Source: Alphaproteobacteria bacterium
Lineage (GTDB): Bacteria > Pseudomonadota > Alphaproteobacteria > TMED109
Length of the DNA: 48,002 bases
Assembly: GCA_022819905.1 (NCBI GenBank)
Contig: JAJEGJ010000011.1
Span: 1-48,002 of the forward strand
Direction of reading: 5' to 3'
Under the pieces are notes generated by a model. It had not been told where the DNA came from and searched no databases. It saw only the letters and a program-made list of their open reading frames with translations. Made by a program: the position numbers and the translations under genes. Below, in pieces: positions 4,093 to 7,269 of the stretch; position 1 is the stretch's first letter, and each line of letters opens with the position of its first letter.

Positions 4093-4389
4093 TTAACGAA
4101 GTGCGCGCGAGAAATAGTCGGTCAGGGGTTTGAAGAGGTAACTCAGCGGCGAGCGGTCCCCGGTGCGGAGATGGACTTCCGCCGGCATGCCGGGGCTGAG
4201 CGCAAAAACGCTCCCGTGCGCCGGCGCGCCGGGATCGGCCTCGCGGGCGGCGTCCTTTTCCATCAGCAGGAAGCACTGCGCATCAATCTGCGTGCCACAG
4301 TCGAGTACCAGGCTGATGCCGGAGGAGCGGATGCCTCGCTGCCGCATCCGCTGCCCGGCGTGAAGGGAAACCTCGAGCCCGTTCGTCAT
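4093..4389 (-). pseudogene. Chimeric remnant: DUF4258-like N-terminus joined to HlyD C-terminus
   Basis: A 98-codon open frame from the ATG at 4387-4389. Residues 1-55 (LHAGQRMRQRGI, then VLDCGTQID) resemble small DUF4258-type proteins, which carry an HA..RMxQRGI helix. From about residue 59 the sequence changes to LSPGMPAEVHLRTGDRSP and LSYLFKPLTDYFSRALR, the last 40 residues of type I secretion periplasmic adaptors (HlyD/PrtE family). Neither half is complete and such a fusion is not a known architecture, so a deletion most likely joined two genes at about 4218. The frame stayed open, so a product could still be made. The ATG overlaps the TGA of an upstream frame (4386-4388). Confidence 0.6.
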
Positions 4390-4577
4390 GACTGCGCCTC
4401 CTCGGCGTCGGCACCCGAAGAGGTTTTTGTGTCGGGTTTCCGGCGCTTCTCCACCGTCCCCCCGGGTTTCCGCTTCTTCCAGCTCCGAGCCGCTGACCCC
4501 TTTGTCTCCGCCAGCTTGTTCAATGGCCTCTCGTAGTCTTTTATCTCTGTCACGCCTGCGCGGGGATAGACCCGCAC
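4386..4577 (-). pseudogene. Remnant frame coupled to the DUF4258-like gene
   Basis: This minus-strand frame ends in a TGA that overlaps the ATG of the downstream DUF4258-like frame (ATGA arrangement), a sign of a once coupled gene pair. The readable part is charged (TEIKDYERPLNKLAETKG, then many Lys/Arg) and matches no family I know. Its upstream end runs into the degenerate CRISPR repeat at 4545-4572, so the nominal ATG lies inside repeat DNA and the original 5' end has been lost. A GTG at 4552-4554 has no ribosome-binding site. Confidence 0.3.
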
Positions 4578-4633
4578 GATGCCATTGCCGCCGACCTGCC
4601 AGCCCGGTTCCCCCGCCTGCGCGGGGATAGACC
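4545..4633 (+). CRISPR. Two-repeat remnant of a type I-E CRISPR array
   Basis: Two copies of a palindromic repeat start exactly 61 bp apart (4545 and 4606), the periodicity of type I-E arrays (28-29 bp repeat, 32-33 bp spacer). The intact copy at 4606-4633 begins GGTTCCCCCGCC, ends GCGGGGATAGACC, and has CCCCGC/GCGGGG arms; it closely parallels the E. coli repeat, which also has GTTCCCC and GGGGATAAACC blocks. The copy at 4545-4572 shares the last 19 bases perfectly (GCCTGCGCGGGGATAGACC) but its first nine are replaced. One spacer lies at 4573-4605. No third repeat occurs one unit downstream or upstream, and no cas gene is in the window. It is probably non-functional without a leader. Confidence 0.7.
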
Positions 4634-4815
4634 GTTTCGCTCACCAACGCCGGGTGGGCTGACGCCGGTCGCCTCTTGGCGTCCGTTCAGACGAACGTAG
4701 GGGCCGGCATCGCGCCTGATCACGTGTCATCGGGGTTTAGGCTCCGGCCCTCGATGTGCGGACGATCGAGAGTACCTGAGATATTCCTGCTGCCCTTCTG
4801 AGTCTGACCACGGTC
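4634..4815. other. Spacer-length flank and intergenic DNA after the CRISPR remnant
   Basis: The 33 bases after the intact repeat (4634-4666) could be a last spacer or unrelated DNA; the next unit position (4667) does not match the repeat. No gene is recognisable before the antitoxin stop codon. Confidence 0.4.
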
Positions 4816-5151
4816 TCAGCGTTGCAACGATCCGCCCTGTCTATCCGCGTCCGAATCGAGCGCCACTTCCGCGCGCAGCTTCAGCCCTAGAGCGCCGACA
4901 ACCCGCAGAACCGTGTCCAAGGTCGGATTGCGCTCTCCCGAAAGTGCCTTGTACAGACTTTCTCGGGACAGTCCGGCATCACCCGCGACCCGCGACATGC
5001 CCTTGGCACGCGCAATGTCCCCCAACGCCTTGGCAATGAACGCTGTGTCGCCGTCGGCCTCCTTGATCGCAGCTTCCAGATATGCGGCCATTTCTTCCGG
5101 CGTGCGGAGGTGTTCGGCAACGTCATAGCGCGAAGTGACGGTCTTGGTCAT
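4816..5151 (-). CDS. Antitoxin, HTH addiction-module antidote (HI1420/HigA-like)
   Basis: 111 residues. The N-terminus (LRTPEEMAAYLEAAIKEA) and the following helices AFIAKALGDIARAKGMSRVA are the pattern of putative addiction module antidote proteins related to HI1420. Residues about 62-95 form a helix-turn-helix (GLSRESLYKALSGERNPTLD, then VLRVVGALGLKL). The protein should bind and neutralise the upstream toxin and repress the operon. Its ATG is 9 nt downstream of the toxin stop codon, giving the toxin-first order seen in higBA-type modules. The length is about that of the family. An 18-bp palindrome upstream of the toxin is the likely operator. Confidence 0.88.
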   Translation of the reverse strand: MTKTVTSRYDVAEHLRTPEEMAAYLEAAIKEADGDTAFIAKALGDIARAKGMSRVAGDAGLSRESLYKALSGERNPTLDTVLRVVGALGLKLRAEVALDSDADRQGGSLQR

Positions 5152-5160
5152 GGTCTACAC

Positions 5161-5451
5161 CTACAAACCTCGAGCGAGGCGCAGCGCCGTCTCGATGTCC
5201 CGGCTCTGAGTCCGCTTCTCCCCGCCAGCCGGCAGAACAACGACCGTGCGCCCCTGCTTCTTGAAATACACCCGGTAACCTAGGCCGTAGTCAATTCGGA
5301 ACTCCGAGACACCCTCGCCCACGGGCCTTACATCGCCCGGATTTCCGGCTGCCAGACGCTCGGCCCGAACCAGGACGCGAGGGCAGGCGCGAACGTCCCG
5401 CAAGCTGTCCAGCCACTTTACGTCGACCTCGGTCTTGCGGAGTTCGATCAT
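5161..5451 (-). CDS. RelE/ParE-superfamily toxin (HI1419/HigB-like)
   Basis: 96 residues with the RelE/ParE fold pattern. The basic core RVLVRAERLAAGNPGDVRPV is followed by EFRIDYGLGYRVYF, KKQGRTVVVLPAGGEK and the C-terminal DIETALRLARG helix, the signature of phage-derived Gp49/HI1419-like addiction killers. The family usually inhibits translation by cutting mRNA on the ribosome. The conserved aromatic-basic motif YRVYFKK and the GGEK turn are present, so the toxin looks intact. It starts at the ATG at 5449-5451 and is followed after 9 nt by its antidote. Its position beside CRISPR and HlyD debris suggests a mobile module. Confidence 0.88.
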   Translation of the reverse strand: MIELRKTEVDVKWLDSLRDVRACPRVLVRAERLAAGNPGDVRPVGEGVSEFRIDYGLGYRVYFKKQGRTVVVLPAGGEKRTQSRDIETALRLARGL

Positions 5452-5946: not shown

Positions 5947-7269
5947 CTAAGGTCTGGTCGGTACGAGGCCCGTCGCCAACGGCACCGCACTCGACTTGAG
6001 GTGGAGGTCGCGCTGCGGGAATGGGATCTCGATTTGGTTGGCATGAAAGCCGTCCCAAACCTTCAGCAGCACGTCATTGATAACGTTGGCGCGTCCCGCT
6101 TGCGGGTCGTCAATCCAGATCCTGAGTTCAAGGCTCACCGAACTGTCTCCGAAGCCCGTGACAAGGCACCTCGGCGGCGGGTCAGCCAGCACGCGCTCAA
6201 CGTCCCGTGCTGCCTGCAGGCACACCTCGGTAGCCTTGCGTAAATCGGACTGGTAGGAGACGCCAATCGGGACTTTCAGACGCACGACCCGGTCGCTGTG
6301 GGACCAGTTTTCCACCCGCTGCGTGATGAGTTCCTCGTTCGGGATCAGGTGCTCGGTGCCGTCGCGGGTCCGCACCGAGACATACCGGGCCCCGAGCGAT
6401 ACCACCCAGCCGTAGGTGCCGTTCACGGCGATGACGTCGTGCGGCTTGATGGACCTGTCCAGCAGCAAGAGGATGCCGCTCACCAGGTTGGCGATGACCT
6501 TTTGCAGGCCGATCCCGACGCCAAGACCTAGCGCGCCGCCGAAGACCGCGAGCGCTGTCAGGTCGACCCCGAGGCCGTTGATGACGACTAGGGCGGCGAG
6601 CGTGACGAGCGCGATCTTGAGCAGCTTCCCTATGAGCACCCGTACCGACGGGCTCAGACCGGTCGCCCGATCGATGCGCCGTTCCAGCAGACCCGAGATG
6701 AACACGGTCGCCCACAGCAGCACAGCGAGCGTCAACGTCCCCTGCACGACCATTAGCAGCGACACCCGCACCTCGCCGAGGTGCACGGCCAGGCCGTCGA
6801 GCAACCCGACCGCCGCGTCGAACAGCCCGAGGACGACGAGCGCCGCCACGCCCCACACGAACCAGGCCACGACACCGGCAATGGCCTCGTTCCGGATCGC
6901 CCGCGAGGCCAGTCGGATCACCACCCAGGCGGTCACCAGGCTGGCCGCGGTCCGCGTGATCCGGTGGCCGATCAGGTCCGTCTGTGCGGTCGCCTCGGCC
7001 GTGAGCCAGAGCAGCAGCAGGATCGCCGCCGGCGTGGCAAGGTCGGCGAGACGGGAGACCGCGCCCGAGAGGTCGGCACGCCATGAGCGGTGTTGCAGGG
7101 CCCGCAGGGTCCACGCCCGCCCGCGCGTCCCGAGCCAGCGCCCGACGAGCAGCGCCAGTGCGACCAGCCCGAGCTGAATTGCGTTGTCGAGGGACAGCAC
7201 GTGCGCATGCACCCAGGCCTCGAGAGCGTCAAGGAGTTCCTCGAGACGGATCCATTCGATCGAGTTCAT
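5947..7269 (-). CDS. Mechanosensitive ion channel, MscS family
   Basis: About 440 residues with several N-terminal membrane helices (for example AIQLGLVALALLVG, AAILLLLWL, LVTAWVVIRLA, GVAALVVLGL) followed by the MscS core: GGALGLGVGIGLQKVIANLV is the pore helix TM3 with its Gly/Ala packing pattern. The beta domain follows with LLLLDRSIKPHDVIAVNG, GWVVSLGARYVSVRTRDG and IPNEELITQRVENWS. The channel releases solutes when membrane tension rises during hypo-osmotic shock. The start is uncertain: the ATG at 7269 gives a normal cytoplasmic N-terminus, while an in-frame ATG at 7305 and a TTG at 7335 would extend it; none has a good ribosome-binding site. It is a single gene. Confidence 0.88.
   Translation of the reverse strand: MNSIEWIRLEELLDALEAWVHAHVLSLDNAIQLGLVALALLVGRWLGTRGRAWTLRALQHRSWRADLSGAVSRLADLATPAAILLLLWLTAEATAQTDLIGHRITRTAASLVTAWVVIRLASRAIRNEAIAGVVAWFVWGVAALVVLGLFDAAVGLLDGLAVHLGEVRVSLLMVVQGTLTLAVLLWATVFISGLLERRIDRATGLSPSVRVLIGKLLKIALVTLAALVVINGLGVDLTALAVFGGALGLGVGIGLQKVIANLVSGILLLLDRSIKPHDVIAVNGTYGWVVSLGARYVSVRTRDGTEHLIPNEELITQRVENWSHSDRVVRLKVPIGVSYQSDLRKATEVCLQAARDVERVLADPPPRCLVTGFGDSSVSLELRIWIDDPQAGRANVINDVLLKVWDGFHANQIEIPFPQRDLHLKSSAVPLATGLVPTRP

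Follow-up and report, generated by a model that had tools for sequence, protein, structure and literature searches.

A probable inert type I-E CRISPR array remnant in an alphaproteobacterial draft genome

A short locus at positions 4553–4633 of contig JAJEGJ010000011.1 was analysed in its context (the window, i.e. the whole 48,002-nt stretch of DNA under analysis). This 81-base piece contains a single spacer between a broken repeat and a complete one; very probably it is what is left of a type I-E CRISPR array and is inert. The preliminary description of the locus as a type I-E relic was essentially right, and the relic is an ordinary kind of object. This reading is supported by the repeat and the 61-nt period, both of which are shared with an array preceded by cas1e and an apparent cas2e gene, and by the flanking regions, which hold gene fragments and a dispersed element.

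Anatomy of the relic

The complete 28-nt type I-E repeat (GGTTCCCCCGCCTGCGCGGGGATAGACC, hereafter repeat 2) is located at 4606–4633 on the plus strand and is the sole match to this sequence in the window at up to three mismatches, compared with no matches in 100 shuffles. Its 3′ 20 nt (4614–4633) are duplicated exactly 61 bp upstream, at 4553–4572 on the same strand, and this copy (20 of the 28 nt) represents the truncated, leader-proximal repeat 1. At the same threshold, these two sites are the only window matches to the 20-nt repeat end, against 0.02 expected. A single 33-nt spacer (CGCACGATGCCATTGCCGCCGACCTGCCAGCCC) occupies 4573–4605 (plus strand), the coordinates at which it had been placed before. 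The previously noted layout, two copies of a palindromic repeat 61 bp apart as in type I-E, was borne out by the matching within the window and by the related arrays described below, and the stretch shared by the two copies is indeed exact, with a length of 20 nt rather than the 19 nt given initially. The sequence before 4553 shows no resemblance to the repeat, so that the left edge of the relic lies inside repeat 1, in agreement with the earlier view that the leader side had been cut off by a break within this repeat near 4553.

Repeat 2 is predicted to fold into a stem with a 4-nt loop. It is free of mutations, which counts against the remnant reading and would mean that decay was recent or that this copy was spared by chance. 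The relic has a GC content of 74%, compared with 65% for the window. Its 61-nt period and 33-nt spacer fit type I-E arrays, which have 32–33-nt spacers, albeit as a single unit only; such arrays comprise several repeats with distinct spacers, whereas the relic contains one spacer. Because it retains only this spacer with one whole and one broken repeat, the locus was classed as a relic and not as an array. No AT-rich leader was found upstream, where the flank has a GC content of 58%, compared with 41 and 49% in the two related arrays described below. Neither a promoter-like nor a terminator-like site was found near the relic, and Rfam gave no match.

Related type I-E arrays and the identity of the repeat

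When about 85,000 species genomes were scanned for the 28-mer, it was found in one contig, PDZV01000056.1 of the Magnetococcales MAG WMHbinv6. The array on this contig contains 16 repeat copies, which are letter-identical to the window repeat over all 28 nt, are spaced exactly 61 nt apart, and have the same orientation, but unlike the window relic it possesses a leader and adjoining cas1e and apparent cas2e genes. The gene order is cas1e, a frame that reads by eye as Cas2e, an AT-rich leader, and the array. The Cas1 encoded upstream best matches the type I-E Cas1e (PADLOC Cas1e, E = 1e-87); it scored just below the curated cut-off of NCBIfam TIGR03638, covering the C-terminal two thirds of that model only, with a frame whose start coincides with the limit of the retrieved sequence.

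The second related array belongs to a congeneric genome (G001) and contains about 198 repeats distributed over two contigs with a 61-nt period. Its repeat shares 25 of the 28 letters with the window repeat and differs only at three positions of the loop, which reads ACAC in G001 and CTGC in the window. A Cas2e gene (over the cut-off) and what reads as the tail of a Cas1 gene lie directly upstream of this array, features that the window relic lacks, whereas the period and the 33-nt spacer length are common to both. Across the related arrays, 205 of 210 spacers measure 33 nt. The two G001 contigs (L022 and L023; G001:C93 and C18) carry similar inverted sequences at their ends (GAGCCTGTC...), and by eye the array appears to be split between them as if by an insertion sequence. 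These contigs are possibly mis-binned, a point that counts against the remnant reading.

The exact match to a 16-copy array, together with about 198 loop variants at 61-nt spacing in G001, indicates that the window sequence is a CRISPR repeat and not a dispersed palindrome. The preliminary description had named an ordinary dispersed palindrome, or the absence of arrays with this repeat from related genomes, as results that would speak against it; the search of relatives instead yielded the exact repeat in the Magnetococcales array and the loop-variant array in G001. These matches, together with the type I-E cas genes beside the two arrays, support the type I-E assignment of the window repeat. 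From the layout of both arrays, the window copy can be oriented with the leader to the left. In the genus Bombella, a genome has orphan type I-E arrays whose repeat tetraloop is not that of its canonical arrays (PMC12282179), and the three loop differences from G001 are thus no argument against a type I-E ancestor in the genus. Repeat-like matches in G002 and G004 fall within what reads by eye as an excisionase-like gene and were rejected as chance matches. A search of viral contigs for the window repeat gave no match.

The cas gene complement and the spacer

The window's genome is a draft (96% complete, 123 contigs). Searches of this draft for Cas8e, Cas7e, and Cas2e gave no match, while the cas searches did give matches in control genomes. 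The only Cas1 present is a Cas4-Cas1 fusion belonging to a type I-G operon; no Cas1e was found, nor was any type I-E cas pseudogene that could prove a former system at the site, which also counts against the remnant reading. The earlier description of an array without cas genes thus holds for the genes searched, and the accompanying search of relatives recovered cas2e in G001. The G001 draft likewise lacks Cas7e and a full Cas1 despite its cas2e gene and large array, indicating that genes of this kind do go missing at contig ends in these drafts and that their absence is no proof; a type I-E operon could be hidden in a gap of the 96% draft, a further point against the remnant reading.

The type I-G operon (L036; G000:C90, 1614–10746) encodes Cas7g, Cas5-6g, Cas3g, Cas8g, and Cas4-Cas1 and is accompanied by the first part of an array with an unrelated repeat, which is cut by the contig end. 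The presence of this system, the standard spacer length, and the intact repeat 2 would fit a functional mini-array that depends on proteins supplied in trans, either from the type I-G system or from type I-E genes missing from the assembly. Such a function is very improbable given that the type I-G repeat core (CCGGGGCGCGCGCGCCCCGG) is unrelated to the relic's repeat, the leader is missing, and none of the type I-E genes searched for was detected. The relic is most likely non-functional now, as judged from the lack of a leader, of a promoter-like site, and of any type I-E effector in our searches. Without a leader, it should gain no spacers, and without Cas6e and Cascade it should be neither processed nor used.

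Two repeat-like units flanking one spacer-like unit, with one repeat damaged, also characterize CreTA modules, in which the guide RNA CreA has a regulatory spacer and controls the toxin CreT (PMC8501985), and toxin–antitoxin genes do lie near the relic. CreA acts via a type I effector complex and the creA repeats are highly divergent (PMC8501985), whereas the window copies are identical over 20 nt and no matching effector was found: type I-E Cas8 and Cas7 gave no match and the type I-G repeat is unrelated. The region from 2.5 to 7 kb contains one spacer match of at least 10 nt, a 10-mer at 6876, which lies inside an MscS-like gene 2.3 kb from the relic and thus provides no complementarity to a neighbouring promoter. 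The neighbouring toxin–antitoxin genes (4816–5451, minus strand; TIGR02683 and TIGR02684, both over the cut-off) encode an ordinary RelE/ParE-family protein pair outside the relic. A CreA-like gene is therefore extremely improbable.

In viral contigs, phages, and plasmids, and likewise in the genomes of the family, no convincing protospacer was found. Searches of viral contigs with exact, synonymous-codon, and every-sixth-base patterns of the spacer returned nothing. A 19-nt spacer seed matched two viral contigs, in which 20 and 26 of the 33 positions were identical, and a single control with the reversed 19-mer gave no match. The better of the two (L051, 1392–1424) has 21 contiguous matches among its 26 identical positions, and the match is preceded by GAG, which is one of the type I-E PAMs of Escherichia coli; it is part of a long frame on the reverse strand, which by eye resembles a tail tape-measure protein. 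This contig may represent a target family of the spacer, but the match is suggestive only, and a single control is too slender a basis for assigning an origin. BLAST searches of the spacer against phages and plasmids, proposed earlier as a check on whether it records an old invader, gave chance-level matches only and identified no source. Elsewhere in the genomes of the family the spacer was likewise without a match, and its similarity to the 210 spacers of the related arrays was no better than that of shuffled spacers. It is highly improbable that the remaining unit has been kept by selection as an expressed guide for an unassembled or incoming type I-E system, with a spacer that still interferes with an invader.

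Flanking regions and origin of the relic

The right edge of the relic abuts a diverged copy (4629–4716, plus strand) of a repeat element that is scattered across the genus; this copy has 68–75% identity to seven others, six in G004 and one in G003. The overlap of a few bp with repeat 2 consists of shared sequence, and the homology among the copies of the element starts at about the point equivalent to the end of repeat 2. These copies (L037–L043) and the window copy are roughly 90–260 bp in length and start near CGCTTCGCTCACCACCGCCGGATGTGCTGACGTCGG.

On the left, an open frame on the minus strand (4389–4553) is cut at the repeat-1 junction and overlaps the start of a DUF4258-like gene; it is possibly the tail of a gene, and no relative was found in the genus. 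The 5′ part of the DUF4258-like gene (4240–4389, minus strand) has a weak Pfam match below the cut-off and resembles longer frames of G004 (42% identity) and G005 (37%). It is fused downstream to a C-terminal remnant of an HlyD-type secretion adaptor (4096–4215, minus strand; a 40-aa match to the HlyD C-terminus), an apparently intact relative of which occurs elsewhere in the same genome and a similar remnant of which occurs in G006. The fused pieces at 4096–4389 form a small set of gene fragments. The plasmid collection contained nothing like 4500–4700 or the left-flank frame. The region from 4.1 to 4.7 kb looks like an accumulation of fragments, as would fit a site tolerant of rearrangement.

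Further to the left, the contig matches G006 up to 4250, and up to 4079 also G001, at 80–92% identity, which anchors it in the genus. This match argues against an assembly chimera, in which an array fragment of another organism was joined to the contig. A mis-join could be expected at repeats in a draft of 123 contigs, and the GC content of the relic exceeds that of the window, but a chimera would require joins to unrelated sequence at both ends of an 81-bp piece, where only the right edge shares a few bp, and is very improbable.

A foreign type I-E array fragment may instead have been inserted by illegitimate recombination, in which case the site would never have hosted a working type I-E system. 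This account concerns the history of the relic and agrees on its inertness, and its probability, which we consider appreciable but low, overlaps with that of the remnant reading. It is consistent with the abrupt edges on both sides of a piece of only 81 bp, with the lack of any detected type I-E cas gene or pseudogene, and with the occurrence of the exact repeat only in a distant Magnetococcales MAG, G001 differing at three loop positions. The type I-E array of G001, however, shows that the lineage had access to such a system, and several deletions in place account for the edges equally well. With the exact repeat known from a distant organism and a close variant from the genus, decay in place and arrival of a fragment are indistinguishable here; the earlier proposal that this lineage once had a Cascade system is likely, with the reservation that it is inseparable from such an arrival.

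According to the remnant reading, the leader, the remaining array, and any cas operon would have been lost from the site by deletion or illegitimate recombination, the left break of which would have fallen inside repeat 1. Arrays of Escherichia and Salmonella shrink to few repeats after the loss of cas genes (Touchon and Rocha 2010, PMC2886076). The window relic resembles these cas-less arrays in the small number of repeats left and differs from them in its broken repeat and in the lack of any detected cas pseudogene.

The relic changes no known mechanism; remnants of this kind are known and ordinarily arise when CRISPR systems are lost. Even a scar that consists of a complete and a broken repeat can be assigned confidently by comparison with relatives. 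That one species of this genus now has a type I-G system and a second species a large type I-E array suggests a turnover of CRISPR types.
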